Source: Ptychodera flava (Eukaryota > Hemichordata > Enteropneusta > Ptychoderidae). Taken from it: DNA of 64,000 nt. Location: positions 38,636,437 through 38,700,436 of the forward strand of contig NC_091930.1 of the NCBI RefSeq assembly GCF_041260155.1, in the 5' to 3' direction. How positions within the stretch are numbered: the first letter of the stretch is position 1; every line of letters begins with the position of its first letter. Of the stretch, positions 1 through 58,847 are shown one piece after another. Both the position numbers and the translations under genes were made by a program. The notes under the pieces were generated by a model that worked only from the letters and a program-made list of their open reading frames with translations, ran no database searches and had not been told where the DNA came from.

Positions 1-183
1 TTCACCAAAATAGTTCTCTGTGACTCTACCAAAAGAAACCTGTAACCGCTGACGTCTTTGAGCCAGTGCGCTGTCATGTAACTTCAAGGGCACGAGCCTT
101 AGCTATGTCCCCGTCACGTGATTAATCTGGCAAATCATGGCACTGAACATCTCGTGTTATATAATTTTTGTGGTTGATTTCAG

Positions 184-1107
184 AAATCCAAACCTATCTT
201 CGAACTATGAATCCCAGGATGAAGAATGGGCTTTGTTTACAGTTCCCGGATTAGCGTACAAAGACTGGTCAGTTGACATGGAAACCAAGTATGGCCATAA
301 AACCAGAGAATGTGTATTCTGGAACGATTATATTCCAAGCCTGATCAAACGAACAGGTATGTTGAATTTTGGGCTGTAACGTCCATAAAACTCTTTCTAA
401 TAAAGATCTTTAGCACTATCTTCAACAAAGCTCTAAAAACATTGCTTCAATATATGCAATTGCAGTATAGCGTCCATTTTCCGTAACCGTGCTGTCGGAC
501 TCTCACTTTGTTGCCGTTTTCATTCCATTACCCGCAAGAAAACCCTCCCGACGATTCCCTTCCAATCACAAAAGCGCCTCTCTGTCATCTCCCAACTAAA
601 AAAGCTCGCCCATTCTTCTCTCGATGAACCGCAGTTTTTCCTCTCTACAGATTGGCAAATAAACTTATATATCCTTCTTTCTACCAGAGAGTCGACTTAC
701 GTTTGCTCAAGGAGAAAAGAAAACAAATCCCTCCCTGCAACGATGAAAATTGCCTATCCGCAGATCGTTCGCCAGCCGTTACTGACTAAAGCGTCAAACT
801 CTGCGCAAAAGATGCTACAAAGATTTTTTCGCAAACACTTTTGCTGGCTCGTTCCGTTTGTATTATCAGTATTATCAGTTGTGCAGTTCTCAACTGCAAA
901 CAGATGACTGGGTCTGACTTTCGCGAAAATACAAGTTCATACGCCACAAATGTCAACTGTGTGTACGTCATCATTATGAACATCTCTTCTCTTTCAGAAA
1001 ACTGTAATGAGTGCACGAGTGCCGCCCAAGACATCAAGGCCTCGATGAAAGTTGTCGGTTTCTTGACGCTTATCCTCTGCAAAATCCTCGATTTCGCATT
1101 TAAATAA
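184..1107 (+). CDS. Gene A: type-B carboxylesterase (cholinesterase-like), last two exons only
   Basis: This is the 3' end of a secreted alpha/beta-hydrolase esterase; the rest lies left of the window. Exon 184-356 follows a TTTCAG acceptor and ends at a GTATGT donor. It encodes NPNL, then VPGLAYKDWS and CVFWNDYIPSLIKRT, which matches the final catalytic-domain segment of cholinesterases (FAKTGNPN and FWNQFLPKLL in Torpedo AChE). Terminal exon 998-1107 follows CTCTTTCAG. The split codon g|aa joins the exons in frame to give ENCNEC, a short spacer and a hydrophobic tail (VVGFLTLILCKILDF), then TAA. The two Cys and the tail suggest disulfide pairing and membrane or GPI anchoring, which is inference. 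Exon lengths (173 and 110 bp) equal those of genes B and C. Catalytic residues lie outside the window, so activity cannot be judged. Confidence 0.85.
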
Positions 1108-2892
1108 GAACAGTTTTGCAAACGAGAATGTTACATTTTCTAGGGCAATCATGTTCCTTGATCCATTTTCGAATCACACCGACGAATTATGTATATATTT
1201 CATATTTCTTGTGCACTTTTTTACATATATTTACTAGGGAAACATCACAAAGACCAGTGATTGCAGTGATTTGGGTTGAACCGTTGGATGTAGTCAAAGT
1301 AGTATCACCAGTTCCGCACAATCCTCGTAACTTTGCAAATGATGCGTTCTTGGCATTTTATAGGGAGATGTGTGTGGAGTTGTCTTGACTACGTCTGACC
1401 TCCTTCCACGGACAATGTTTCAACTTTTACACAGTTGATTTCTTCGAGATCGACTGAAAGTACCGCCTAGACGATAAAATTACGCTTGACAGTGTTGGTA
1501 ACTCCTTAATTTAGACAGTATGCCTGGTTCCTGTAAAGCCAACTGTTAACGCAACGGCGCGTACCATCTGTATTTTGCAGCAGTGTAATATCAAATGCAT
1601 GTCAGGTGCCATAACTGTATGCTAATGAGCACTTAAACCCGGACTTGTTTGTAAACAGCGAGTATCTCTTAAGCAAACCGAAAAGTATTGTATATAAGCT
1701 ACACTTCTTCACAATGAAGGAATATATCTAAGAGAGTAAAATCACAGTTCTTAAAGTTTTGGTATATTTTAACAAGTGTTTTCTTTGTTGCTCATATGTC
1801 TACTGTGTAAAGATTTAGCACAAACCCTTTTAATTATGAATGAGTAGGTATTTGCTATACTCTTTCCCGCTATGATTGCAACGAAATGTTTGAAGTTTAG
1901 CGGGACCTGTTCTGAGAAATACAAGAACCTTTATAATTTTATCCAATCAGAACTAGGAGAGTGGCATAAGTAGCCAATGAGAAAGTTAATGACATCATCG
2001 TACATCAAAGCAAATTTAAAGTAGGAATTTAATTGGCAGATATCATTCTGCCAAATTTCAGACGTCAAAACGCGTCGTACCGGGTATCACTGTGTTTGTG
2101 TTTCCGTTTCAACAACATGGCGAGGCAGAGCAAGCACGACGTGCTCAAGGTATTTGCAATCGGGTGCCTGCGGTGTTATCTGCTCTCATATCATTCGCTA
2201 GACGCCTGTTCAGGGACGACCGCAGAATACCGCAAGCACTCAAGCAAATACCCGGGTACATCGCACTTCCACTGTCTCACCATGGCGGTTCTGTGATGTT
2301 ATTCTACGTTTTATAAAGGTCAAATCTTTGATAACTGTGCTCCGTGCAAACCCTATAAATACTAGACAACCGTCAAAATAAATCATATTTGTTCATGGCG
2401 TGCTTTGTTGTAAGTGTGAATGATATATCACTATGTATATGTATGTGTAGATAAGTAAGAAGGTAGGCAGTCAGGCAGGTAGGTAGGTAGGTAGGATGTA
2501 TATATGTAGGTATACGGTGGAAAGCGACAGTTAAAGCAGAAAATCGTTAAAGCGGTAGACGCGTTATTTCTGGCGAAGTGATGATTTTGTGTCCTGTAGG
2601 TGAGGGCGCACTAATTTTGAACCTTAAAAGACCTTGAAAGTATCAAGTCACTACTTGCCAATACAAATTACAATGGATGTTGCTCGACAAGGGACAGATT
2701 CACATTCGAAGTTGCGTCACGTCTAACTGTCGGCCTGGAGTATATGTAGTCGTTGTCGTCGAATGGGTTCGGGTTATTAACTAGGTCACCAAGAAGGGCC
2801 GGCAAAAGGTAACCGCTCTCGCCCTGTCAGTAGTTTTATCCTGTGAACCAAGCAAGCAGACTACAAATAACTGGGAAAGGCACGCCGGTTTG
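1108..2892. other. Intergenic stretch of tandem unit 1
   Basis: No gene is supported here. The stretch aligns by eye along most of its length with 11168-12941 and with 21292-21551 plus 23540-25294, so it belongs to the tandem unit. Positions 1960-2400 are a well-kept block: CCAATGAG, GACATCATCGTACATC, then an ATG-containing stretch. It may hold upstream control sequence for the D-type first exon that follows. The open frames in it are not conserved between the three copies. Confidence 0.6.
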
Positions 2893-3347
2893 ATGTCGTC
2901 GTTGGTATAAGCTTCCGTGTCTTTGGCATGTCTTTGTTTTGTTGCATCCGAAGACCCGCCGTTAGAAATCGTTTCGGGAAAACTGATCTGCGAGTCGGTG
3001 GAATATTCGCACAGGGACGTCGAAATTGTGCGCGAAGTACAAATTCAGGGGGTGTACCGAATCCCAAACCGTCCGGTTGCGGGCCTGCGATTTTGACCAT
3101 CCCAGACCGACGTTCGATAGGATGGTGTATAATGAGGAGACTACTTTTTGGATCAGCTTGTATTCAAGCCTACGATCCGTTGGGAACCGCAGACATTTGA
3201 CACGTCGCTTCGCGATCGGCTCTCTCTCTCTTTACTGTGAATCAGTACCGATCGAAGCGACATGTCAAGTGCCTCTGGTTGGAACCCATCGCTGAAATCA
3301 AGAAGACTGCCTATACCTGAGCGTATACGTACCGGAAACGACCGATG
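2893..3347 (+). pseudogene. Orphan decayed D-type esterase exon 1 (unit 1)
   Basis: This matches exon 1 of gene D (25295-25651) over its whole length: the signal-peptide region, the region of EDP..EI, the FRG(V)P region, and the 3' part around GSACIQAYDPL, which is still readable. Frames are broken by several indels and stops, and a hAT-like MITE sits at 3189-3278. The splice donor reads GCAAGT where gene D has GTAAGT. No exons 2-8 of a D-type gene follow; the next exon is the B-type exon 1 at 4251. It is therefore a single-exon relic left by tandem duplication, not a processed copy. Homology to gene D continues about 80 bp into intron 1 and stops near 3430. Confidence 0.8.
3189..3278. mobile_element. 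hAT-like MITE inside orphan exon (copy 1)
   Basis: A segment of about 90 bp is absent from the matching place in gene D exon 1 and is flanked by near-identical 8-9 bp repeats, TTGGGAACC (3180-3188) and TTGGAACC (3279-3286). Gene D has a single TTGGAACC there. The ends are inverted repeats: CAGACATTTGACACGTCGC on the left, and CAGAGGCACTTGACATGTCGC-like on the right when reversed. An 8-bp duplication and CAG-type termini fit hAT elements. It is too short to code for anything. Confidence 0.7.
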
Positions 3348-4250
3348 CAAGTTTTTGGGTCACGAGCACCTCGATTTCTTCCCATCCGGATGCATCATTA
3401 AGCTCCGTGCTAATTAATGCTGCAGTCAGTTAAACGTAAAATATGAGTGGTGATTACTTTATCACTATCATGGAAGTTTTCAATAATGTAACAATTGAGT
3501 TATCAGTTACCCTGACGTTTCCGATCCCTGGCTTACAGATCGACTGTGCAGCTTCGTGGCGATTTTCAAAATAGATTGAGATACTATACCCTTATTGGTC
3601 TATGGGCTTCTTGGTTTTTCGTACCCTTAAGTTAACCTTCAGCCAGTCGTATCACCTGACAATGCGATTGTGAAGACAAATAAAAATTCGGTCAAAATTG
3701 TCTTCTGGTCAGAAATGGAGGGTTAAAGAATTTCTTTGGTAACAAAAGATTATTCAAAATCTTCACGTTAAATATCCCATTCTGGAATAGTGATATGCAT
3801 ATTAAACCGACTGGTTATGAAACCACTCAAAAAGCAAGACTGGTAGGTAGATTGGGAGAGAAATTACTGACTGAAAGAGTTGCTTTCCGTTTGTGTTTTA
3901 CAGGACACAATTCAATGATTTGGTTAATTCTTTGTTGACTTTATAAATCAATCTGAGCATTCTCGCTAAATGAAACAACGTGAGTTCTCGGCTGCAAAAA
4001 TAATGTTTACGTCATCTGAATCGTTCTCAAGTTTGAGCCCCACCCTATAAACGACTGCTGACCTGTGGACAGTCAGTCATATGTTTACAGTATGTCCCAT
4101 TCACTGCGAATGATCCTATTCGACACTTCAAGATTTTCTGTACTGATATGCAAATAGGCTATATTTTGTCAGACTTGTGTCACCTGTCATCTCAGACCCG
4201 TGTCTGAGTCTGTATCGTGAGGACACTGTTCTCCGCTTGCAGGATAAATT
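3348..4250. other. B-type gene upstream flank (unit 1/2 junction)
   Basis: The D-like intron homology ends near 3430. After that the sequence matches the flank of gene C (about 13740-14522), for example GTAACAAAAGATTATTC and CCACCCTATAAACGACT. It is probably the 5' flank and leader of gene B. No TATA box or start site can be assigned with confidence. Confidence 0.5.
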
Positions 4251-11167
<6,917 letters not shown>

Positions 11168-12941
11168 GAACAATTTTCGCAAACGAGAATGTTACTCTTT
11201 CAAGGGAAATCATGTTCTTTGATCCATTTTCGAATCACATCGACGAATTATATATATTTTTTATTTCTTGTGCACTGTTTTGCATATATTTACAAGGGAA
11301 ACATCGCAAAGACCAGTGATTACAGTGATTTACGTTGAACAGTTGGAAGTAATCAAAACAGCGCCACCTGAACCGCACCATCCTCGTAACTTTGCAAAAG
11401 ATGCGTTCTTTGCATTTAAGGAGGTGCGAGTGGTGTCGTTTTGACTACGTCTGACCTCCTTCCATAGACAATGTTTCAACTTTCACAGAGTGAAGTTCTT
11501 CGAGATCGACTGAAAGTATCACCTAGACGATAACTACGCTTGACAGGGTTGGTAACTCCTCAATTAGACAGTATTCTAGTTCCCGTAAAGGGAACGGTTT
11601 AACGGAATGGCGCGTACCATCGGTATTTTGCAATGCAGATTAATATCAAATGCATGTCAGGTGCCATAACTGTATGCCAATGAGCAATTTAACCCGGACT
11701 TGTTTGTAAACAGCGAGTATCTCATAAGCAAACCGAAAAGTATTGTATATAAGCTACACTTCTTCACAATGAAGAAATATATCCAAGAGAGTTAAATCAC
11801 AGTTCTTAAAGTTTTGGTATATTTTAACAACTGTTTCCTTTGTTGCTCATATGTCTACTCTGTAAAGGATTTAGCACAAACCCTTTTTGTTATGAATGAG
11901 TGTAGCTATTTGCTATATTCTTTCCCGCTCTGATTGCAACGAAAAGTTTGAAGTTTAGCGGGACCTGTTCCGCAAATACACGAACCTTTTTAATTTTATC
12001 CAATCAGAACTAGGGGAGTGGCATAAGTAGCCAATGAGAAGTCAATGACATCATCGTACATCAAAGCAAATGTAAAGTAGTAATTTAATTGGCAGATATC
12101 ATTCTGCCAATTTCAGACGTCGAAACGCGTCGTACCGGGTAACACTGTGTTTGTGTTTCCGTTTCAACAACATGGCGAGGCAGAGCAAGCACGATGTGCT
12201 CAAGGTATTTGCACTCGGGTGCTTGCGGTGTTATCTGCTCTCATAACATTCGCTAGACGCCTGTTCAGGGACGACCGCAGAATACCGCAAGCACTCAAGC
12301 AAATACCCCGAGTATATCGCACTTCCACTGTCTCGCCATGGCGGTTCTGTGATGTTATTCTATGTTTAATAAAGGTCAAATCATTGATAACTGTGCTCCG
12401 TGTAAATCCTTATAAATAGACAACCGTAAAAATAAATCACATTTGTTCATATCGTGCGCTGTTGTAAGTGTAAATGATATATCACTGTGTATATTTATGT
12501 GTACTGGGTAAGTAAGTCGGTAGGCAGTCAGGTAGGTAGGATGTATATATGTAGGTGTACGGCGGAAAGCGACAGTTAAGGCAGAAAATCGTCAAAGCGG
12601 TAAACGCGTTATTACTGGCGAAGTGATACTTTGTGACCCTCGGTGAGGGCGTACTAATTTTGAAACCTAAAAGACCTTGAAAGTATCAAGTCACCACTTG
12701 CCAATACAAATTACAATGGATGTTGCTCGACAAGGGACAGATTCACATTCGAAGTACTAGTTGCGTCGTGTCTAACTATCGGCTGGAATATATGTAGCCA
12801 TTGTCGTCGAATGTGTTCGGGTTATTAACTAGGTCACCAAGAAGGGCAAGCAAAAGATAACCGCTCTCGCGCTGTCAGTAGTTTTCATCCTGTGAACCAA
12901 GCAAGCAGGCTACAATTAAATGGTAAAGATCACGCCGGTTT
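11168..12941. other. Intergenic stretch of tandem unit 2
   Basis: Copy of 1108-2892. It includes the conserved block at about 12000-12430 with CCAATGAG. No gene is supported. Confidence 0.6.
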
Positions 12942-13398
12942 GATGTCGCCGTTGATACAAGCTACATGGCATGTCTTTGTTTTGTTGCATCCGAAGACCC
13001 GGCGATAGAAATCGTTTCGGAAAAAACTGCCCTGCGAGTCGGTGGAATATTCGCACCGGGATGTCGACATCGTGCGCAGAGTAAACATATTCAGGGGTGT
13101 ACCGTAGGCCAAACCACCGGTTGGTGACCTGCGATTTCGACCACCCCAGACCGACGTTCGATGGGATGGTGTATGATGAGGAGACTACTTTCTTTGGATC
13201 AGCTTGTATTCAAGCCTACGATCCGTTGGGAACCACAGGCATTTGACACGTCGCTTCGCAATCGGTTCTCTCTCTCTCTTTACTGTGAATCAGTACCGAT
13301 CGAAGCGACATGTCAAGTGCCTCTGGTTGGTACCCATCGCTGAAATCAAGAGCGAAGATTGCCTATACCTGAACGTATACGAACCGGAAACGACCGAT
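12942..13398 (+). pseudogene. Orphan decayed D-type esterase exon 1 (unit 2)
   Basis: Second copy of the relic at 2893-3347, closer to it than either is to gene D exon 1. It shares the same internal MITE (13235-13326) and the same GC in place of the GT donor. The 3' half still reads SEDCLYLNVYEPETTD in one frame. No D-type exon 2 follows; gene C exon 1 is next, at 14523. Homology to gene D persists to about 13490. Confidence 0.8.
13235..13326. mobile_element. hAT-like MITE inside orphan exon (copy 2)
   Basis: Same insertion as 3189-3278, flanked by TTGGGAACC and TTGGTACC. It is shared by descent, so it inserted before the unit was duplicated. Confidence 0.7.
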
Positions 13399-14522
13399 GC
13401 AAGTTTTTGGGTCACGTGCACCTCGATATCTTCCCATCCGGATGCATCATTAAGCTCCCTGCTAATCAATGCTACTGTCAGTTAAACGTAAAACATGAGT
13501 GGTGATTAATTTATCACTCACAACACGATTGGAACTTATTCGAGATAATTGGATGGTGAAGTAATGTCGATTTAATCTACAAATGTAATCTCATATGCTT
13601 TTCTTTTTATAATACACACTTGTTTTTATGAGTAATTTGCACTATTGCAACATTCAGCTATATGGCACCTAACACTTTGAGAAATTTGAAAAACAAAGAA
13701 AATCCATTTATCCAAAATTAGTTCCAATCGTATTTCACATGGAAGTTTTCAATAACGTAACAGTTGAGTTACCAGTTACCCTGACGTTTCCGATCCCTGG
13801 CTTACAGATCGACTGTGCAGCTTTGTGACGATTTTCGAAATAGACTGAGATACTATACCCTTATAGGTCTACGGGCCTCTTTGTTTTTCGTACCGTTAAA
13901 TTCACCTACAGCCAGTCATATCACCTGACAATGCGATAGTAAAGATTCAAATAAACATTCAGTCAAAATTGATTTCTGATCAGAAATTGGAGCGTTAAAG
14001 AATTTGTTTGGTAACAAAAGATTATTCAAAATCTTCCCGTTAAATATCCCATTCTGGAATAGTGATATGCATATTAAACCGACTGGTTATGAAACCACTC
14101 AAAAAGCAAGGCTGGTAGGTAGATGGGGAGAGAAATTACTGACTGAAAGAGTTGCATTCCGTTTGTGTTTTTACAGGACACAAATCAATGATTTGCTTAA
14201 TTCTTTGTTGACTTTATGAATCCATCTGAGCATTCTCTAAATGAAAACAACGTGAGTTCTCGGCTGCAGAAATAATGTTTACGTCACCCGAATCGTTCTC
14301 AAATTTGAGCCCCACCCTATAAACGACTACTGACCTGTGGACAGTCAGTCATATGTTTACAGTGTGTCCCATTCACTGCGAATGGTCCTATTCGACACTT
14401 CAAGATTTTCTGTACTGATATGCAAATAGGCTATATTTTGTCAGACTATTGTTGACTGTCATCTCAGACTCGTGTCTTAGTCCGTATCGTGAGAACTCAG
14501 TTCGCCGCTTGCAGGGGATATT
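13399..14522. other. B-type gene upstream flank (unit 2/3 junction)
   Basis: Apart from the MITE at 13523-13735 this matches 3348-4250. It is the likely 5' flank of gene C. No start site is assigned. Confidence 0.5.
13523..13735 (+). mobile_element. MITE family 1 copy
   Basis: About 213 bp, with inverted termini ACGATTGGAACT / AGTTCCAATCGT extending imperfectly to about 30 bp. The unit 1 flank (near 3455-3470) is the empty site. Two other copies lie at 16463-16674 and 25779-25991. Confidence 0.75.
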
Positions 14523-15276
14523 ATGCATATCTATATCGTAATCGGCGTCGCGTTTTTTAGCTGTGTTGCCGCTGATGCCCCCGTGGTTGAGGTCACCTCG
14601 GGAAGAGTAGCCGGCACAGCTGTTGAATTCACCCACCCCGACGTCGTCATTCAACGTACGGTCAACATCTTCAGAGGGATACCCTATGCCGAGCCACCGG
14701 TAGGCGAGCTGAGATTTCAGCCGCCAAAAAGTAAAACTCCATGGGCAGACGTTTACGATGCCACGGAGTTTCGCTCCATTTGCCCTCAGCCGGTGTACAA
14801 TTTACTGCCTGGATCTGAACCGCAGAGCGAGGACTGTTTATTTTTGAATGTTTACGCGCCGCAAACACAGGTAAAGGCAATTCCCTTCAGTAGATATTTC
14901 TGAGCTTCAGCTAAATCACCTTTAAAACAATAGTAAATGTACAAGAATGGCACACGACACTATTCAACGGCGGTCCTGTATAAAGTATAGCATGAGAAGC
15001 AAAGAAGAACTGCGAAGTACAGAAGTTACTTTGAACGGCACACAGAGGCCGTTAGGTCATAAAAAAGTAATGTAAGTCAACAATGACAAGTTTTCCTTCG
15101 CGGGCGCGTAGGGTGATAGCCAGCTTTCTCAAGCGAGGAGATAACCTTTAAGCCTTTCACTTGCTACTGAAGTGTCTTTTTCCCTCGCTCGCACCTACCT
15201 ATGTGTCTGTCTGTGTGTAAATCTCTTTACGTGTCTCTTGTTATGTATTTCTGTCTCTATGTCTCTCTCTCCCTAG

Positions 15277-15495
<219 letters not shown>

Positions 15496-16462
15496 TAGGC
15501 TTCACAAAGGAAGAGAGTGGAATTGAAGGGACATTAGCTTGAACACGACAATAACCAATGAGTTGTGCTTTTGTTTGCGAAATGCAAGTGCAACTGACTG
15601 ACGCAAGTATTTACGAGTTGTGGTCACTCGTTTGAGTTACCATTTATTGCGGATGACTCATGATAATATATGTGACCATTGTTATTTATTCCATACGCCT
15701 GCAATTTGATAAGCATATATAGTCAGCAGATATATATAGTTAATTCATCATGGCAACATTATCATCATACTGCAGGTGACGAGCACGCCACTGGTAACTA
15801 TGGGCTGCTCGACCAGATAGCAGCATTGGAATGGGTACAGGACAACATAGCAGGTATGACTCACCGAGCTTCGATTATGTACTGAGAAGGTATAAAAATA
15901 TTATTTAGGACTCAGCCCTTGGCGTAGCACCAGACGTTAAATAATAAATTTTATTTCCTCTGAAAATGCAATGTCGACAACTTGAGCGGCTTTACACATG
16001 AGAGGGGCCACTTATTGCGTAAACTTTAAATTCAAACACCCAGTTTAGCCCTCTAGTGAAAACAGTACACGCTTTGTCACACCCCAGTAGGTATAGATTT
16101 TCTGTTTAAACTGTCAAAAAGTTTGACATAAGTTGGCAATTTTTACCATATGAGCAACCAAATGTCTTTAATAAGGGACGTATTGTGCATTGGTGGCGAT
16201 AGCAACTGTACTGCCCAACTTCCAATTGCAAGCTGATAACCACCGTTCCATCTAACAATTTTAACACCTAGTTATTGATACAGAAGACACTTTTCTAAAT
16301 TCTATCCCAGCATTCTTGGCATGTGTCCTCGTTCTAATGCAAAACAATTTTCTCTCTCAATTCTACTTTTTAGGCGTGATGGCAATGATACCTTGTATCA
16401 ATTAAGAGGGGGGGGAATTAATATGACAGTGCTATATTTTTCTAATGGCGTGTTAAAGAACA

Positions 16463-16674
16463 ATATACCAATTGGAACTAATTTGGGATTATTGCTGAAG
16501 TAATGCCGATGTAATGTACGAATATAATCTCATCTGCTTTGCTTTTTACATTTCACACTTGTTTTTATGAGTAATTTGTATCATTGCAACACTCAACTAT
16601 CTTGCACCCAGAACTTTTGAGAAATTTGAAAAATATGAAAATCCAATTATCCCAAATTAGTTCCAATCGTGTTT
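16463..16674 (+). mobile_element. MITE family 1 copy in gene C intron 3
   Basis: Same orientation as 13523-13735. Gene B intron 3 has the empty site near 6385-6395 (TAATATACTTTGC). Confidence 0.75.
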
Positions 16675-17269
16675 ACTTTGCATATTTCGTATTTGTTTCT
16701 TTACAAGCTTTCAAAAATGGCAGCTCTCGTAAATTTGGTTTCTTGAACTTTCGCTAACTAATATCTTGAACCAGCAAATGCATAATCAGTTAGCTGCTGG
16801 CGCGTCTATAAGTAAGGAAAAGTGTTTGTCGAGTAATACAATCACTCATTTGTCACAGGACAGCTTTCATTGATAAACGAACTATTTATTTTTGGTTTTA
16901 AGGCGCCAGGAACACATAGCGACAACGATTGCTTTGCCTTGGTTCTTTAGTCTAAGTAAGGGTCGTATGTTTTCCCCGTAGCAGATTGGGGATGACGGTA
17001 TGCATTAATCTTCAAGAACAGATCATGTGTGCATGGAAGCATATCAGCCTACTGATATAGAAGCAAACAAATAAACAAAACAAACCTTGAAAATTCAATA
17101 ATTCCATTAATTTATGAAGTAATGAAACAATGATTGAATTAACGAATGAGTTAGTATAATGAATTAATTAATACATTATTTTTAGGTGAATGAATAATTA
17201 AACTGATTAATTAATTAATGAATTGTACTTCAAAAATAAATTCATTGATTAACGAATAAATTAATCAAT

Positions 17270-17270
<1 letters not shown>

Positions 17271-17317
<47 letters not shown>
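17271..17317. repeat. (CT)n microsatellite
   Basis: About 23 CT units with one interruption, in gene C intron 3 upstream of exon 4. Confidence 0.9.
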
Positions 17318-17320
<3 letters not shown>

Positions 17321-17671
17321 ACTTTATCACAGTCATAGTTCCTCTCTACTTAAACCCCTTCACTTAACATCAAGGCATACGCAAAATGTTCACATTGTCC
17401 TGATAATACTAGTGCTAATCTTTATTATCTATCTCGATAGCATTTGGGGGAGATGCCAACACAGTGACAATATCTGGGCAAAGCGCCGGGTCAATCAGCG
17501 CCGATCTCTTGTTGTTTTCGCCACTGGCGGAGGGACTCTTCCACCGGGCAATTATGAAGGTAAGCTCAAACGTTGAACATTCAAAATTGTTAGTATTTAT
17601 TTGCTTTCGTTAGCCTCTAGCCTTTACAATTCCGGTCCTTCAAAATGATGAAAGTTTTATCCATGATATGT

Positions 17672-17875
17672 ACCTACCTACCTACCTACCTACCTACCTA
17701 CCTACCTACCTACCTACCTACCTACCTACCTACCTACCTACCTACCTAGCTACCTAGCTACCTAGCTACCTAGCTACCTACCTACATACATACATACCTA
17801 CCTACCTACCTACCTACCTACCTACCTACCTACCTACCTACCTACCTACCTACCTACCTACCTACCTACATACAT

Positions 17876-17918
<43 letters not shown>

Positions 17919-17937
17919 GGACAGACAGACAGACAGC

Positions 17938-17968
<31 letters not shown>
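17672..17968. repeat. (CCTA)n then (GACA)n compound microsatellite
   Basis: About 300 bp of tetranucleotide repeats with short variant runs (CTAG, CATA), in gene C intron 4. It occupies the paralogous place of 7344-7461 in gene B, whose motifs are different. Its minus-strand frames give Cys/Ser/Val-rich nonsense, not a protein. Confidence 0.93.
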
Positions 17969-19952
17969 AACAGACTGACTGACATGCTGACATACATACA
18001 AATTACATACTGACTTACTGATATATACTGACAACATACTGCATATATACATACATGCAGCAGAATTACAGAGGATGACAGACGTAAATACTGACTTACT
18101 GACATACATACAGACAAATATACTGACACAGATACATTGATACCGACATGCATTCATACTAACATACAGGCATTATTAACTACAATATTGTTTTAGTAGT
18201 ACATAAGGAAGTTTTAAGTAGACTTGACAAGGCTCACTTTGCATTTGAAAAGTGACGTGTGTTAATTGTAATTATCAATCTATTTTAAGCGTTAAGGATG
18301 AATATAATTACTAATTTTTAGTCCTCTGTATGATGAAGACGGAAATGAGTTAATATTGCAAACATATCTTCAGTTTCCGATTTACGAAAAAGCGCTTTAT
18401 TCCTCTAAGATCTGAGGATGTACACGTCAATTTTGAACTGTCATTATGATCGGTTCTTTTTAAAATCGAAACAATTACACAATTAAGGAAATACACCGGC
18501 TTTAAAATTGTCCTTTTTCATTCTCCATTCTCTCTGAGTAAATGTATACATTTTCAGTTAAATGGTTCTAATATATATGACATGTGATAAATTACTGTGT
18601 AAAGCTATATATACATGCATGCATACACAGGACATATAGCTAATTCGTTTCTCTTAGCATTAATTCAGCAATTAGCATGTTCAAATAAGACATTGTAAGC
18701 GTAACAAGTCAGCACAATGAGACGTTTTAAGTCCAGTAAGTCCGCACCATGTTCCAAAATATCTCGCACTTATCTTCACAGAGTGGAACAGCTACAATAC
18801 CGACCTTTCCACTGACGGATAAGGCGTTACAAAGCAAGATCGCCCATGGTCTCGGCAAAGTGCTTGGATGCGAGAAGGAAACATCGGAGGAACTTGTCAA
18901 GTGTCTCCGTACCGTGCAAGCTGAAGACTTCAATGATCCAAGCAACCCAGCTACGGTGAGTGAATCATGAATAATCCTATAAGACTTACTTTTTAATTTA
19001 TTTAGTTTTATTTCATTTTATTTAAAAATAGAATTGTTTTCCTTTTCATGTTTATTTTGTTTGCAATCGTATCTCTTGTTTCGATTTTCTTTGAATTTAA
19101 TATCAATTAATTTTCTAAAATCAGCCTTTGAATTAATTCTTAACATAAAATAACCATACTAACAATTTTGACCTATTTTTACCATCGGCAACCACCATTT
19201 TGCAACACATTTTATACATAGTTCGTCCCAAAAGGCTTCACAAAACTCTACGCCTCTGACCTAAATGCCTTCACCATTTCTTCTTTGTAGAATATAATAT
19301 CAGATGCAATCGGAGAGCAGCTGGAAGAAGGGCCGTTTTCTCCCTTTGTTGACGAAACAGTCTTGCCAGAAAACCCCAAAGAGGTCGTTGCCGAAGGGCG
19401 CTTTTCCCGAACGAGTATTGACATACTGATGGGTGCAAATGCTGACGAGGGTACGTTCATGCTGGCTGATATATTACCTTACACGGTGAACCAGACTAAG
19501 CCCACAGTGAGTAAATCTCAATTCGAGGAGTCCTTGCCAGATTTCCTCTTCGGCCCCGCGAAAAGGAACCCGGCTGCACACGACGCCGTCAAGCTAATGT
19601 ACGTGGACTGGGCGAAAGAGGGCTCTGATGATGCTAACTACGCCGAAGCGTTGTCTTAGATGATCGGCGATCAAATGTTTGTTTGTCCTACGGATTTGTC
19701 AGCCCGGGCGTACAGCGAAGCAGGTAGTAAGGTCTATAGGTATTTCTTGACCCATGTACCGGCTTCAACATTTTGGCCTATGCCTTGGATGGGTGCAGCA
19801 CATGGTGAAGATATCCAGTTTGTGTTTGGTTATCACTTCTTGAACTACACCATAATGCCACAAGAAGAGATAAACATGACACTCCAGATAATGAAGTACT
19901 GGACAAACTTTGCAAGAACAGGGTAAATTAATATAGACATATGTACACATAC

Positions 19953-20077
<125 letters not shown>

Positions 20078-21551
20078 ATATTACATCAATAGACCCGGAC
20101 TTAACATGTGAGCTTAGATATAGACGTACCATAACAAAAAACAGTAAGACAGCCAATGTATGAGTCGATATAAGCATATAATAATTGTGAACAGAAAGGT
20201 CTCTTTTTATATGTTCCCATTTCGTCAGGTTTCTCAAAGTTCTTCGCTGATCAAATACAAAATTTCAGCCAGGTTGCAAGGACCTCGTCGTTCATGGTGC
20301 TTTGGCCACCTGCCACCTTGCAAGACGACACCACCATATATGGTCACGCGACGAGGTCCTCTTTCACCAAAATAGTTCCCTGGGAATTTACCACAAGGAA
20401 CTTGTAACCTCTGACGTCGTTGTCCTCATGCCAGTGCACCATGAATGAACTTCAAAGGCACGAGCCTTATCTACGTCCCCACCACGTGATTAATGTGGCA
20501 AATCATGGCACTGAACATGTCGTGTTATCTCATTCTATACGGTTGAATTCAGAAATCCAAACCTACCTCCGAGCGATGAATCCCAGGACGAAGAATGGGC
20601 TTTGTTTACAGTTCCCGGATTAGCGTACAAAGACTGGTCAGTCGACATGGAAACCAAGCATGGCCATAATACCAGAGAATGTGCATTCTGGAACGATTAT
20701 ATTCCAAGCCTGATCAAACGAACAGGTATTGACATTTAGGCTGATACGTCCATATAAATCTTTCCAATAAAAATCGTTAGCACTGATCTTCAAAGAAGCT
20801 TTTAAATATCGCTTCAATAAATCTCAATGGCAGTATAGTGTCAAATTCCAATTATTCTGACGGACTCTCACTTTGTTGCCGTTTTCATTCCATTGCCCGC
20901 AAGAAAACCCTCTCGTCGATTCCCTTCCAATCACAAAAGCACCTCTCTGTCATCTCCCGCCAGTACTGGCTAAAGCGCCCAACCTACAACAAAAGATTCC
21001 ACAAACATTTTTTCGCAAACACTTTTATTGTATTTCCGTTTGGTATTATCAGCACCAGGCGTGTAGTTCTCACCTGCAAGCAGAAAATTGTGTCTGACTT
21101 TCGCGAAAACACAAAATTCACACGTCACATATGTCATATGAGTACACTTCATCATTATACATATTATCTCTTCTCTTTCAGAAAACTGTAATGAGTGCAC
21201 GAGTGCCGGCCAAGACATCAAGCCCTCCATGAAAGCTGTCGGTTTCTTTACGCTCATCCTTTACAAACTTCAGGATTTGGCACTTTATTAATTACAATTT
21301 TCGCAAACGAGAATGCCACTCTTTCAAGGGAAATAAGGTTCTTTGATCGATATCCGAATTTTATATATATTTCTTATTTCTTCAACACTTTTTTGCATAT
21401 ATTTACAAGGCAAACATCGCAAAGGCCATCCCTGTGGTTTGTTTTGAACCGGCAACTTGGAAGTAGTCCAAACAGTATAACCTGAACGCCCAATCCTCGT
21501 AACTTTGCAAATGATGCGTTCTTAGCATTTAGAGAGATATGTGTGGTGTTG

Positions 21552-25294: not shown

Positions 25295-43029
<17,735 letters not shown>

Positions 43030-46060: not shown

Positions 46061-46539
46061 ATAACGTACATTCTCATATGCGGTGTGTGCAATGTCGTGT
46101 AAATATTTGATCTGTCCTCAATTTATCTCGCTATTCATGTTTGCAAAAAAAAACAAAAACAGAATACATTGTTTTGTGTGAAGTTAATAAAAAATTGAAC
46201 AATTTCTTATCTGCAAAGATAAATAGTTATTCGTGTTGAGATTGCGCGCCTTGATGAAAATTTTAGCGATGTTTCAAAACTAACTAAACTTGAAGCGATC
46301 ACCAGTTCTATGCACAACAAATGTATCGTTCTTGTTTGATAAAAGGAACTACCCTAAATAGGAAACCATTTGAGCTACCTGATCAGAATGAAAAATGATG
46401 GGGTTTCCTCAAATTATCAAGTTTAATGAATCACTAAACTTCCTGCTTCTCAGCTGTCGCTTGTTGGAGTAGAACTTCCCTCACGGACAGAAATTCGGAC
46501 TTTAAAATGTTTAAATTGAGACTGTCCTTGTATACCATT

Positions 46540-46975
46540 GTGGGGCATAATTTGAAGCTCCCAGAGTAAGTTAACTTCTCTCTTCTAGTTTTTGCAAAAC
46601 TCGACATTTCATGTTTTGCCATAGTACTGGTAGTGTACAGAAGGGTGGTGGCCATTTTGAATTTTAAATATCTGTACAAATACATGTTAAAATACAATGT
46701 AATTTTTCTTGGGGAAAACTCATAAGGTATTCCTTGCTTTTATTTTTGATTTGGTAAGAGTGTGATTGAAAGTTTGCAGTTAAGAGGCATGTATGACCTT
46801 AACGTTGGTGATCCATTCGTGGAAAAGCAAATAGATATCTTCGTAATTAAAAGAACACCACAAGTTAAGAGATCTTCCTATAAAATGTTTATATTGTCAT
46901 TCAGTTGACAATTAAGGTTATACATGGCAACCGGACAGTGCGTCGTCGATTTGACGTAGTACCATAACGATATAC
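46540..46975 (+). repeat. Duplicated interspersed repeat, copy 2 (left part)
   Basis: The left part runs to about 46975, and the right part resumes at about 50700 with CGTTGATGAATTTT. The 3.7 kb between is an insertion: a LINE carrying a further element. Confidence 0.65.
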
Positions 46976-47451
46976 CACATTATTCATCTCAATATTCATC
47001 AACATATATTGAAAACGTTCTACTCTAGTCACATTGAAAGTGTAATTACCTTCTCATATTTGAGCTGGTGTGGAGGTCTGACCGTTTCGAACTTGAACAA
47101 ACTACATACAATTGTTAACACCTGTTCCAAAATCTATGGCCGTGAATGTAAGATCATGAAATCACTGAATGAGAACAGAGCTTTTGGCAAAGCTGTTAAA
47201 ATCATCGGGGATCCTTCCCATTCATTGGCTCAGCTTTTTGAGGAGCTCCCGTCAGGTCGTAGGTATAAAACTCTAAACACGTCATGCTCGACTAAGTTAT
47301 GTACCCTTTGCCCTCCAACTTCTCAATCAGAGAATGTCTTAAATCCACTCTCTGTTCAACACTTTTTGTAATTAGTTTTTTTTACGTAACTTCTATGTGT
47401 ATTATCCTTTTTATCACCGTTGTATTTTTAATGTTGGTTTGTCTGTGCCTA

Positions 47452-50400
47452 CGGCGCGCCAAATGTTTCAAAAATATTTATCATCATAGAGTAAAAATAA
47501 ACTGTCAATTTTTCTTTCTAAATAAAGTCTTAAACGTGTATGAATAATAAAGAAAAAATTGTTTCGTCCATATCATTTTATTTTATTAATGTACTTTTTC
47601 ACAAAAATAACATTCATTTGAAAATATGTGTCAATAAATATTTGAATGTGTCTGTACAGATAAAGATGACGTGAAACCGTCGTTTTCGATTGAAGTAAAA
47701 ATTAGATGGAATTACGGAAGAAAATAAACGAGAAAAGTATTATTGCAAAAAAGGGGAGAATGTTATGTAATACTTAATTGTAAAATACCCTTTAAACCGT
47801 AATGAGAAGATAAACTGTTTGCAAAAATGTGAAAATACCACAATCCCATACTTATTGACGTACATACACGTGTATTTGATATAAAGGTGCAATGAATGCT
47901 GATTATAAAGGAAAAAAGTAAAAAAAAAATCAAGCACACACAAAAAAATATTGAAATGCTTAAAAACAAAACCAAAAATAGTACTTTCACTACTACAAAA
48001 AAACAAAGCGAACCACCATCAGGTCTGACTAAAAAAAGAAAGAAAATCACAACTGAAAAGTCGACCGAGATCGCGCTGGCGCTGAGGCTGAAAAGAAACC
48101 AAAACGAGGTCAGCTTGAAAAAAGCCAAAACGAGGTTAAAAAAAAAAAAACAAAACGAAAACGAGGTTACCAAAAAAAAAAAAACCAGTAGAAAAAAAGA
48201 GGCCCGTTCGAGAAAAGAATTTAGAGTGGGACACCCCGCAGAAAAAGCCAAACATGTAAATTGAATAATTCTCAATCTGATTGTTAGAGTTTAGTGCCAG
48301 AGGGTTTTGGATCATCACACTCGGATGTTGGACAAGATATTTTGGGTACTTCAGCGATGACTCTCAGCTTCTAGTCTTCAATGTCATCTCATGGACGTCC
48401 AGTTACCGCACGTCCCATTCTATATTAAACAGTTACAAGTGGACAAAACATTCGTGGTGGTTCGTCGGCTGCCAGCGGTCCCCTCGCTCATGGCGTGCCT
48501 CAATGTACCCCTTTGAGATGGTAAGCTAGCGGCCGGCGGTCCCGTCGCTAGTACAGTACACGCCGCGCTGGCGACCAGCGATCCCTCACTGTACAGTGTA
48601 GGGCCGCCTCTCCCAAACCATAGACAGTCTGTGCCAAAGCCATGGAGTCCTACCCCAATAAAACGATGGCTAGCCGCCAGCCCACGGTTACGTGTGTGAT
48701 TCGATACATAGCGGCCGCCCGTGTGGGTATGCATAGTTGCATAGTAAAATTGCACGCGGCGGCCGCTATGTATCGAACCACGTGTAACCGTGGGTTTAGC
48801 CTCTAAACGGAGTGTGGCAAAGGAAAAAATACTCAGGCTAAAACACTCCGTTTAGATTCGAGGCAACGTTTTCAGTAGTACATGTAGAACGCGATCGCGC
48901 CCGACTTGACAAACACTGATCAAGCAGCCGCTATTTCTCTGTATAACTGATTAATGTAGCTGTGGGTGGCAGGGCTGTGTGCCGGCGTTACACGGCCAGA
49001 CCGTATAACGCCGGTAACTCACCGCCCTGGCACCCAGAGCTATGTATAAGCTACTGCACAAATATCGTAGCTCCATATATTGGACTGTGTGGAAATAAAG
49101 CTTTCTGCAGTGGGGATCGACATGTCGTGTATGTGCCGGTCTAGCCCTGCGAGTATAATGAGAGTGTCTGGCGTTGCGAAGGCCGGACACTCTCGCCATA
49201 CTCGTTAGGCTTGTGCCGGTCCTGAGGGATCGCGGTTGCATCATAGTGCGTGACACTGTTTATAGTTGCGTCGCTCGTCTTGTCGAATACGGAAAACGAT
49301 GGACGTTCTCTCAACACGCCGGCCGCTATGTATCGAACCACACGTAACCGTGTAGAAATCATATAACGGCGATGACAGAGCGGCTCGGTGCAAGGCCTGC
49401 ATATGCATGTGAGCCCCCTGCCGTATCGCACCTAAGGCATCCATATGTTCGCAGTGTTGCTATGAAGGGACATGGGTTGTACGTCTCGCTCGTGATCTGA
49501 ACTGTGGACTGTCTCAAATTGGCTCAGTTAACTTGACTCTCTGGAACTATTCACAGTTAACCTGGACGTTCTTTAGGTGATATTGCACTTCACTTCATCA
49601 AGTACGGTTTCAAGTAGCTCTGCTTGGCTGGGCCTAGCCAAACAGAGCTAGGATTCAAGATGTCAAAGTTATCACTGAAATGCTCAATTAATATTTCGTC
49701 AAACATTTGAGTATGTGGTGATCGAATTCCCGGCTGTTGGGTTTTTATCGATCGAAGGAAACGTGAACCATGAGTTTTTTGAATAAATTAATTGTAATCT
49801 CGCGCGTTTGTTTTTTTTTGTGTGTGTGGCGAGTGCTCGGGGTTTTTTTTGTTTTTTTTTTCTTTTTTTTCCGTTTTTTCTTTTTTTTTGCAGTGGCGAG
49901 TGCTCATTTGTTTTTCTTTCCACAGGCCCACGCGTTTTTTTTGTATTTGCTGTGTCCATGGCATTTTTTATTTTTTTATTTTTATTTTATTTTATTTATT
50001 TATTTTTAGTCAATGATGTCCACTTTTGTCTAGAGCCATCACTGCCGAATTTTTTCTGTGATTTTCTCTCTTTACTGTTAAAAGCGGCTGGTGGTTCATA
50101 TTATATTTTTGATTATCTACAATACGTTTTTTATGAGACGTACTGCTTTTTAATTTTCTTAGGTACATAAATAATTTTATGTATGCATGGCTTTTTTGTC
50201 TGATTCTTTTATAATGATTTTCTGTATGTGGTTCACATTTTAATTTTTGTAATTTTTTTCCGAGTGGTACTAGTGGTTTTTTAGTGATTTTCCTGTGATT
50301 TTTGTGTACGTACCACTGTAAACATCTTATACTTTTTTCGTAAAATCAGCACTAATTGCACCTTTTACGCGAACTATTATACGTGTATGTATGTCGATAG

Positions 50401-50632
50401 GTATGGATGTATGACTTTTTCAAATCGTTGAAAATTGTTTATTTCCTCATTACGCTTTAAAGAATATTCTCAAGTTAAAATGAAGTATTAAATGACATTT
50501 CTGTCTTTGGTTTTAATTATACTTTTCTTACTTATTTCTTTCCGTAATGACACCTAATTTTTATTTCAATCGAGAAAGACAGTTTATTTTTGCACTGAAT
50601 CGATAAATATTTTTGAAACATTTGGCGCGCCG
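47452..50632. mobile_element. 3.2-kb non-coding element: perfect 31-bp termini, long inverted arms, hairpin core
   Basis: The ends are exact inverted repeats for 31 bp, starting CGGCGCGCCAAATGTTTC, with TA on both sides (47450-47451, 50633-50634), so a TA target duplication is likely. Imperfect inverted arms continue inward for about 0.6 kb (to about 48055 on the left and 50055 on the right; the left arm has a 175-bp extra piece near 47505). The left arm is poly-A rich and the right arm poly-T rich. The core (48300-49690) is GC-rich and full of palindromes. No transposase is recognised; the Lys-rich frame at 47896-48264 comes from the A-runs. It resembles a foldback or non-autonomous TA-target DNA transposon, but I do not recognise the family. 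Confidence 0.7.
48470..49660. repeat. GC-rich array of successive hairpins inside the 3.2-kb element
   Basis: Clear stems: 48681-48718 with 48758-48794; 48799-48817 with 48842-48864; a nested stem of about 88 bp, 48956-49044 (core CCGGCGTTA / TAACGCCGG); 49150-49172 with 49181-49203; 49615-49631 with 49635-49651. The arm GGCCGCTATGTATCGAACCA occurs directly at 48761 and 49321 and inverted near 48700. A GCGGTCCC(C/G)TCGCT motif repeats near 48477 and 48535. Confidence 0.7.
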
Positions 50633-50950
50633 TACTATGCCATTGCCAGACAAGTTTCCCATTTTGTAGGCACAATAAAGTTTAATAATAATAATAATAT
50701 ATTTTCTATACCGTTGATGAATTTTCATGCCAAAGCTTTCCACCAAATGTGGCTATTGGCCGAAGACAAACAATATTACAACGCAAAATTTTCCGGCTAT
50801 TATTGCGGCTCTCGTTGTTTGTAAAGATGATTCGGGCACGTAAATAATGCAACAATGGACGGTAAAATCTGATAAAAAGTTTTCACACTTCTTTTCGCGA
50901 TAGCCAGGCATGCCGACAAGTACCAGTTAGAAATATGGAAAAAAACATCT

Positions 50951-51669
50951 TGTTATGATGATTTTAATATTTGTTCCCGATATGGAACTTCGAAGAACAA
51001 ATAATATACACGGTATTACATGAACAGTCAGTGCAACAAAGTAATCCAAAGAAAACCTACAGCAAGTGAAATTCGGTTATGGATGTAAAAAAAAGAGAGA
51101 TGGTTTGAGACCGATCGCGAGTTGTGAAATGTGCCCGAGTTTCTCTTTGTGCCGACTTGCCTTATGATTGGACAGAGTCGGATTTTTTTTCTTTGTTGGA
51201 GTTCGTCCAAAGTACGAACTGAGGTCAATTTGTATTTTAACCATATCGTCTTGAAAATCTAGAACCCAATGAGTCATATAGCAAGTCATAGCATGCATAG
51301 TCAAAGTGCACGCGGTTTCAGCGCTGACGGTCCATGACTGGTACTGATAGCCACTGATTTTTAAATCGTATTTGCACGCAGTGTTGAGCATTTATGTAAC
51401 TTATAAACATATGTTCTACTTCGTTTTGTTAATCTTCTGAAATGTCTCAAAGTTTTGGGTTTTTTTTCGTGTTGAAATTCTTCAAGACGAGAATTATCTC
51501 TTGGATACTTCTCTATGTAATATGTATGTTGCACCCTTGTTTATGGCCCAAGCCTGTTTCCAGGTCACTTGAAAATTCTTTGATTCGAAGCAATAAATGC
51601 CTTACCTATACGAGGTCGGGGGAATAGGGTTACCTCGCATAATCTGCCGACCAATAGTTCATATTCTCA
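50951..51669. other. Gene E upstream flank
   Basis: No gene or clear repeat is seen. Presumed 5' flank of gene E. Confidence 0.45.
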
Positions 51670-51677: not shown

Positions 51678-52092
51678 GACAACTCCATAGTCAACCGAAT
51701 CGACACCATGGCTGACGAGAGGGTGTTTGTCAACGATGAGTGCCGTACGAATCGCCGTGTTCGTCGCATTTCTGCTGGGTTCCATTGCTGCTGACGATCC
51801 GATCGTAGAGGTGAAATCGGGAAAAGTCGCCGGTAGAGTGGTGGAGTTCGCTCATGAAGACGTTGAGGTCAAACGTACGGTGTATGTCTTTCGAGGTATA
51901 CCCTTTGCCGAACCACCGGTAGATGATCTTAGATTCCGAGCACCAGAGCCGAAAAGCCCATGGGAAGGGGTTCACGATGCAAAGGAGCTTGGCGCGGCAT
52001 GCATGCAACCGCCGAGCCCAATTTTTCCGTTGGACGGCGAGTCACAAAGCGAGGACTGTCTATATTTGAACATATATGCACCACAGACTGGG

Positions 52093-52929
52093 GTAAGTCC
52101 CGGGCAAGTCAGCCAACACAGAATGAGACTCTGTCAATAAACAGGGTATGGGTCATTTGGGCAATTTTCGTTCCCAGTTTTAATAGGTTGGACATCTTAG
52201 AAAACCCTGCATTTCTTCATTACGTTATCTTATATATGCGACGGAATGTTCCGCTTCCTCGGTTGTGTTTAAGTCATTAAAGTTTAATGCAGTTATGCTT
52301 TCACCATCGCACTACAAGAAGCACGGTATTGGTTTACTACGGAATTCTCAAACGAAAAAAATACCTTACATCTTTTATAATTTTCTAGTTATATGATTAT
52401 GTTACATTTTTGGAGATACGTTTAAAGTTTCGCTTAATTAAGCTAGTAAAATGTACTCTTTTATTCAGTACTTTAGATAGTCAAAGGGGTCCAGGATAAA
52501 TATCTTTTTGTTTCTGGACTGTCCTTACATGAGTATCGACATTTTCCATTGATTTGTCAGCCTTCGACTTCAGAGAACAAATTATAACTGTTATAAAACT
52601 GCAGCGGGGGCTGAACTATTTTGTAGCTCATGTTCACTATATTTCTGATTGCCGTAGGTCACCCTTCCAGTTAAGTGACCAGGCAAAGGTTCACCGTTGG
52701 AGTTTATCAAAAGATGACCTTTGAGCAGGTGCAATTGTATCATCATGTTGAAAGCTTGCACGTCGACACTTAACAGCATGCACAGTGCCTGATACAAGCC
52801 ACAATTCGATTTAACTTGAACCAAAGGTGAAGGGAGTGGCAAAATTGGTATTGCCAACATGACACGGACACGCACCCTCTCGCCTCGCTTTGCCCATGGC
52901 CAATAGCGGCGAAACTCTATAGCTACCTT
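52093..52929. other. First part of gene E intron 1
   Basis: Nothing recognised apart from ordinary AT-rich intron sequence. Confidence 0.5.
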
Positions 52930-57857: not shown

Positions 57858-58847
57858 GGAAAACTGGCAAATATTACCGGAATTTCAGACCTTCTGATTC
57901 CATTTCCTCCGGTCGTTGACGGCAACTTCCTCACCGCGTCACCCGAGGGTCTCATTCGAGAGCGTAGTTTTCCAAAGAGAGGCACCGATATTATGATCGG
58001 AACAATGGCTGATGAAGGAAGGGGATTTCTGATTGTTTTCTTCGCCGATAAGGCCAATGACACCGAGATCTTCTTGAACAAGACATATTATAATGAAATA
58101 TTCTCTACATATTTGGGGAGTGACAAAAAATCCAACCCAGCTGTAGCGGACGCTATTAAGCAAATATATGTCGACTGGGAAGACGAAGATTCGGACGACA
58201 CCAATTACGTCGAATCGTTCAGTCAGACGCACGGGGACATGTATTTAGTTTGCCCCGCCGATCGATCAGCGCGGGCGCACTTTCTGGCTGGCTCCAAAGT
58301 GTACCTCTACCAAATGACTCACATACCTTCGCAGTCAAATTTAAGATTAAATGGTGAAAGCTATGCATGGTGAGGAAGTTCCGTTCGTATTCGGTTGGCA
58401 TTTTGACAGTGCTATGAACTGGACAATGCCTGATGATGACGTCATGATGACCTTGAAGATCATGAAGTATTGGACAAACTTCGCTAAGACAGGGTAAAAT
58501 AATGAAACAAAATTCATGTTTTAAACCCATATCATGACGATTATAATCATGACTTTATTAGCCAAGGCTTCGAGTTCGGTGACAGAAATTCAAAATCAGT
58601 TGTAATATTTCACAACCAGACAATGCTACTTAAGATAATGACTAAAATTCCCCTTTCAAAATTGCAATTCGAGGCACAGGTGAATTCTGTCCCTGTATTT
58701 CGTAATCGAGCAAATATCAACGATCAATATCCTTTCCAGTACACGGACGAAAAATTGTGCAACTTTCGATTTCACCTGGTATTAATATCAATCATAGCCA
58801 TTATCGAAGACATACGTACGTACGTAAGTACATATACATACATACGT

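Follow-up and report, generated by a model that had tools for sequence, protein, structure and literature searches.

A probable foldback DNA transposon with exact, TA-flanked termini in the hemichordate Ptychodera flava

A 3,181-bp stretch of the Ptychodera flava genome is very probably one copy of a cut-and-paste DNA transposon, non-autonomous and with the long terminal inverted repeats of foldback architecture. It occupies positions 47452-50632 of the window, by which we mean the whole 64,000-nucleotide stretch analyzed (contig NC_091930.1, positions 38,636,437 to 38,700,436). The element ends in exact inverted termini, its long arms are inverted homologues, its core forms strong local hairpins, no gene was found in the open reading frames (ORFs) scanned, and the stretch that bears it is missing from a diverged duplicate of the host DNA. 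The arm homology, the core hairpins with their ~39-nt unit, the host duplicate lacking the stretch, and the stem spanning the flanks are additions to an earlier note on this DNA.

Features of the element and its insertion site (window coordinates):
46969-47451, plus strand: LINE-like fragment, portion left of the interruption, with an ORF that stops at 47371 and then 3' UTR (LINE identity presumed)
47450-47451, unstranded: left TA, presumed target-site duplication (sequence; the flank stem is weaker without TA)
47452-47482, plus strand: left 31-bp terminal inverted repeat, beginning CGGCGCGCCAAATGTTTC (end comparison, 18-mer scan)
47452-48370, plus strand: left arm, rich in A-runs, GC 0.31 over 47452-48250, matching the right arm imperfectly in inverted orientation
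48371-49656, unstranded: GC-rich core containing local hairpins, no gene detected (limits approximate, set by the arm alignments)
48681-48794, unstranded: strong hairpin, including 24-nt arms 96% complementary (z -12.6, 120-nt window at 48680)
about 48954-49045, unstranded: strong hairpin, predicted fold (z -7.0, 120-nt window at 48960)
49143-49211, unstranded: hairpin, ungapped 33-nt arms with 76% complementarity (z -4.1, 120-nt window at 49120)
49314-49352, plus strand: third copy of the ~39-nt unit, 90% identical to 48754-48792
49657-50632, minus strand: right arm, rich in T-runs, GC 0.30 over 49761-50632 (inverted alignment to the left arm)
50602-50632, minus strand: right 31-bp terminal inverted repeat (end comparison, 18-mer scan)
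50633-50634, unstranded: right TA, presumed target-site duplication (sequence)
50633-50701, plus strand: right part of the interrupted LINE-like 3' UTR, with AATAAA and a TAA-repeat tail (LINE identity presumed)

Termini and insertion site

The first 31 bases of the element are the reverse complement of the last 31 (CGGCGCGCCAAATGTTTCAAAAATATTTATC), and the identity breaks at base 32. A TA lies immediately outside each end, and the inverted match runs through it (47450 / 50634), so that counting the flanking TA it covers 33 bp. With up to three mismatches allowed, the 18-mer CGGCGCGCCAAATGTTTC is found in the 64-kb window at the two ends only (expected number 0.02), which gives one copy of the element in the window; none of 100 shuffled sequences contained two such matches. 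The AscI-type octamer GGCGCGCC is likewise confined to the two ends (expected 0.11; two matches in 0 of 100 shuffles). The coordinates, the exactness of the termini, the TA on either side, and the octamer had all been claimed in the earlier note, and all of them hold. The ends also carry GCGCCAAA (TTTGGCGC on the opposite strand) at 47456-47463 and 50621-50628. To us this motif resembles the E2F binding consensus; both chance and a link to S phase are possible.

TA on both sides can arise by chance in AT-rich DNA. The flanks, ...TGTGCCTA on the left and TACTATGC... on the right, share no direct repeat beyond TA at the break, and a Mutator-type target-site duplication of 8-10 bp is absent. If a single TA is left between the joined flanks, TGTGCCTAC and GTAGGCACA pair in a stem that spans the break. 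Its predicted energy is -16.0; keeping two TA gives -17.5, and removing TA altogether gives -12.3. The flanks thus joined look continuous in the predicted fold, and TA seems to be part of the target because the stem is weaker without it. One TA and two TA cannot be told apart by the stem, which therefore does not prove a TA duplication.

The fragment interrupted by the element is presumably the 3' end of a LINE, having an ORF just upstream, AATAAA, and a TAA-repeat tail. Its 138-aa ORF had no Pfam match at E 0.001, and a BLAST search with the joined flanks revealed no relative of the 3' UTR spanning the break within the window. Of the earlier claim that the element splits a LINE 3' UTR, the clean interruption of another element stands, and the name LINE is kept as a presumption.

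The LINE-like fragment in turn interrupts duplicated host DNA. The segment 45331-46040 has a diverged second copy, 46501-46968 plus about 50700-50936, 73% identical by BLAST; the host duplication is old and local. In the upstream copy, 1.2 kb away, the homologous parts almost adjoin (BLAST limits 45779 and 45794), and the stretch with the LINE-like fragment and the nested element is lacking. In the other copy, these parts are split by 46969-50701.

Elsewhere in the window, pieces of carboxylesterase genes are spread over 4248-62101, with the Pfam COesterase domain in the ORFs 51691-52137 and 57858-58370; other ORFs in this interval look carboxylesterase-like by eye. About 10 kb is duplicated in tandem at 1-20957 (1-10687 versus 10101-20957), with five long self-BLAST pieces that are 84-89% identical and some shorter ones of lower identity. 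Remains of retroelements lie at 29303-29854, 31388-33128, and 35505-39242, with an integrase core in 31388-32011 and a reverse transcriptase in 36964-38028 (Pfam), and include inverted copies such as 32627-33128 versus 38162-38639. At 33527-34224 lies a further palindrome, some 700 bp long and 79% self-complementary (best arms 33634-33822 / 33925-34113, 83%), possibly another foldback or palindromic element. Long inverted repeats of the size of those at 47452-50632 can promote rearrangement, a potential of some interest amid tandem pieces of carboxylesterase genes.

Arms, core, and gene content

The arms, about 0.92 and 0.98 kb long, are inverted homologues. The outermost segment, 47452-47526, matches 50560-50632 (61 identities, 12 mismatches, 2 gaps); 47674-47923 pairs with 50327-50585 (192 identities, 56 mismatches, 13 gaps; 77% identity, gaps excluded); and 48302-48370 pairs with 49657-49731 (53 identities, 16 mismatches, 6 gaps). 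Every one of these alignments scored higher than its 300 shuffles. The segment full of A/T runs, 47937-48198 with 49913-50185, did not rise above shuffles (score 97, with a maximum of 97 in 300). The first two alignments have the right-arm bases 50560-50585 in common, and the 147 bp of the left arm between them, 47527-47673, found no partner in the local alignments. Aligning the entire left half with the right half in reverse gave a score of 509.5, against a mean of 351.6 (sd 21.8, maximum 399) in 100 block shuffles. The element thus has what defines a foldback, long pairable inverted repeats around a middle domain, with three of the four arm segments above shuffles. We also looked for further copies of the end motif within the arms: 13 of 200 shuffles did at least as well as the best same-direction match in the left arm (score 13), as did 140, 149, and 15 of 200 in the other three tests, and such copies were rejected.

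The arms had been described as purine/pyrimidine arms with A-runs on the left and T-runs on the right. The runs are borne out by an AT skew of +0.47 at 47750-48249 and -0.48 at 49750-50249; the arms are strand-biased and not strictly purine or pyrimidine. Such a pattern of A-runs and T-runs is expected of mutually inverted copies. The contrast of a GC-rich core with AT-rich surroundings is also seen, with GC 0.51-0.54 in four 500-base windows (starts 48250 to 49000) versus 0.392 in the whole window. For CpG, the observed/expected ratio reaches 1.43 and 1.49 in the two arms, while the core has 1.05 and the window 0.88; the undepleted CpG of the element may reflect youth or lack of methylation.

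The hairpins claimed for the core are indeed strong and local. The segment 48250-49760 has a folding energy of -616.9, compared with a mean of -487.4 (sd 6.5) in 12 block shuffles. The structure is uneven: among 37 windows of 120 nt, compared with 30 shuffles apiece, four have z below -3.0 (-12.6, -7.0, -5.4, and -4.1), and the remaining 33 lie between -3.0 and +1.8. A unit of ~39 nt occurs in three copies in the core and forms the hairpin at 48681-48794.

The absence of an evident gene, also noted earlier, agrees with the Pfam results. The element is overlapped by 37 ORFs of at least 40 codons, of which 11 distinct ones were scanned, 47763-48287 at E 0.001 and 10 ORFs, one of which was scanned at both thresholds, with E up to 1; none of the 11 reached a Pfam cut-off. 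Seven of the 10 ORFs scanned at E up to 1 had no match, and the other three gave four matches, all below cut-off, the best with 17.4 bits (E 0.0035) versus a cut-off of 27. ARAGORN found no tRNA in the window. In 47000-51000, the sole Rfam match at E up to 1 was mir-3957 (22.3 bits, E 0.89), with a gathering score of 84.

Exact-word searches in viruses and prokaryotes gave no relatives among the matches listed. The 16-mer GGCGCGCCAAATGTTT occurs in 9 viral and at least 119 prokaryote stretches, where chance alone would give about 120 matches in 257 billion bases with even base use; the prokaryote number being a lower bound, there may be an excess over chance. Among the 89 matches listed, there was one match per stretch. 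BLAST of the element against retrieved loci with GGCGCGCCAAATGTTT (E limit 1) yielded alignments of at most 35 bases and exact matches of at most 21, which did not reach the arms. The core unit, a 21-mer from the inner terminus, and the LINE tail had no exact match in viral contigs. A literature search by the end octamer and nonamer showed no transposon family with these ends among the papers listed, those found with the nonamer dealing, by title, with transgenesis, vectors, or unrelated subjects; this is weak evidence, repeat libraries being outside the scope of the search. Among the matches listed for GGCGCGCCAAA, no title named a transposon family.

Origin of the element and alternative explanations

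A natural explanation is that the ends have been kept for transposition, as the earlier note suggested. With 19% divergence, 31 identical terminal bases would have a probability of 0.0015, and with 26% one of 0.00009. Thus, exact ends beside arms that are about 77% identical are unlikely without constraint. Together with the flank stem and the host duplicate lacking the stretch, this makes transposition the best fit, although mobility itself is something we infer. The combination of exact ends and diverged arms also suggests that the arms diverged in ancestral copies, before this one was inserted.

In the most probable scenario, the transposase would be supplied from another place in the genome. 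It would recognize the conserved 31-bp termini, cut the element out, and integrate it at a TA dinucleotide, with duplication of that TA. The landing site would have been the 3' UTR of the short LINE-like fragment, itself interrupting the duplicated host stretch among the carboxylesterase gene pieces. The arms would have drifted apart in the lineage of the source element, with transposition holding the ends identical, and inverted duplication during repair of excision gaps is the most likely source of the nested hairpins in the core.

TA duplication is a hallmark of the Tc1/mariner superfamily, and because it marks this superfamily, a Tc1/mariner-type enzyme is the first candidate for the mover; with TA as the one character pointing there, its chances are about even. 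To our knowledge, CGGCGCGCC is not the end of any Tc1/mariner element. A similar element could instead have been moved by an enzyme outside this superfamily, for example of the Mutator or P type, with TA being part of the element or present by chance, a tentative and rather unlikely reading. It would accommodate the inverted match that continues through the TA, and foldback precedents exist in Tetris, suggested to be a Mutator element, and Galileo, a member of the P superfamily; long inverted repeats are described for the two (PMC4079207, PMC4168063). The duplications reported are 8-10 bp for Tetris and 7-8 bp for Galileo, whereas the flanks here share TA only.

The folding energy of 48250-49760 and the low z-scores at 48680, 48960, and 49120 would be accounted for by a transcribed hairpin locus, a source of small RNA or of long hairpin RNA with its structure under selection, and not a mere transposon. 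However, inverted repeats fold well anyway, 33 of the 37 windows are unremarkable in z, the Rfam match falls far below its gathering score (22.3 versus 84), and perfect ends with TA flanks would be left unexplained; we consider such a locus improbable. Quite improbable, too, is a transposon group with a new terminal motif (CGGCGCGCC, TA target) whose core of conserved transcribed hairpins serves the element, for example by feeding or escaping small-RNA silencing. The palindromic organisation over a long range could have originated by inverted duplication through repair or template switching, with gene conversion making the ends identical. But the identity sits exactly at the outer boundary, is bounded by TA, and cleanly interrupts another element, and conversion would not be expected to favor the outer ends; hence this origin appears very improbable. 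Vector or synthetic DNA would explain the AscI-type GGCGCGCC at each end and the NotI-type sites in the core, such as GCGGCCGC inside the 48681-48794 hairpin. With arms that are AT-rich and diverged, and no match at E 0.01 (distant mode) among 72,556 plasmid and 50,697 phage records, its probability is negligible.

If other copies of the element exist, it would represent a family of repeats in the host genome, and its exact ends could be used for finding the transposase that moves it.

Comparison with known systems

Miniature inverted-repeat elements (MITEs) are commonly under about 800 bp, and the element, at 3,181 bp, falls outside this size class. As to copy number, which is high in MITEs, the 64-kb window contains this one copy. 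The nematode repeats with the Repbase name PALTA are palindromic, non-coding, and TA-flanked. The element can be likened to them in all three respects at the level of general description.

Foldback elements, characterized by long inverted repeats, may stem from different lineages (PMC4079207). Tetris of Drosophila virilis, for which a Mutator affiliation with 8-10 bp duplications is suggested there, has internal repeats of ~220 bp in its terminal inverted repeats (TIRs). Our element is similar to Tetris: it has long inverted repeats and a middle without apparent coding capacity, is non-autonomous, and its autonomous partner has not been found. It differs in having TA only and in that our repeat search revealed no array of the ~220-bp type. 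According to PMC4168063, Galileo has 7-8 bp duplications with the consensus GTATTAC, its TIRs are structurally variable, and one described copy consists of two extended TIRs only. The inverted repeats are long in both cases, but this element lacks a 7-8 bp duplication.

Another example is the LTIR group of Tc1/mariner elements in aphids, which, according to PMC5490172, have TIRs of about 460 bp, a DD40/41D transposase, and lengths over 2.3 kb; most lineages are reported there with TA duplications. The similarity to our element is one of general description, namely long inverted repeats and TA. The aphid elements encode a transposase, whereas none was detected here. In summary, the long-inverted-repeat architecture and the TA target are each already known, and the element is of an ordinary kind.
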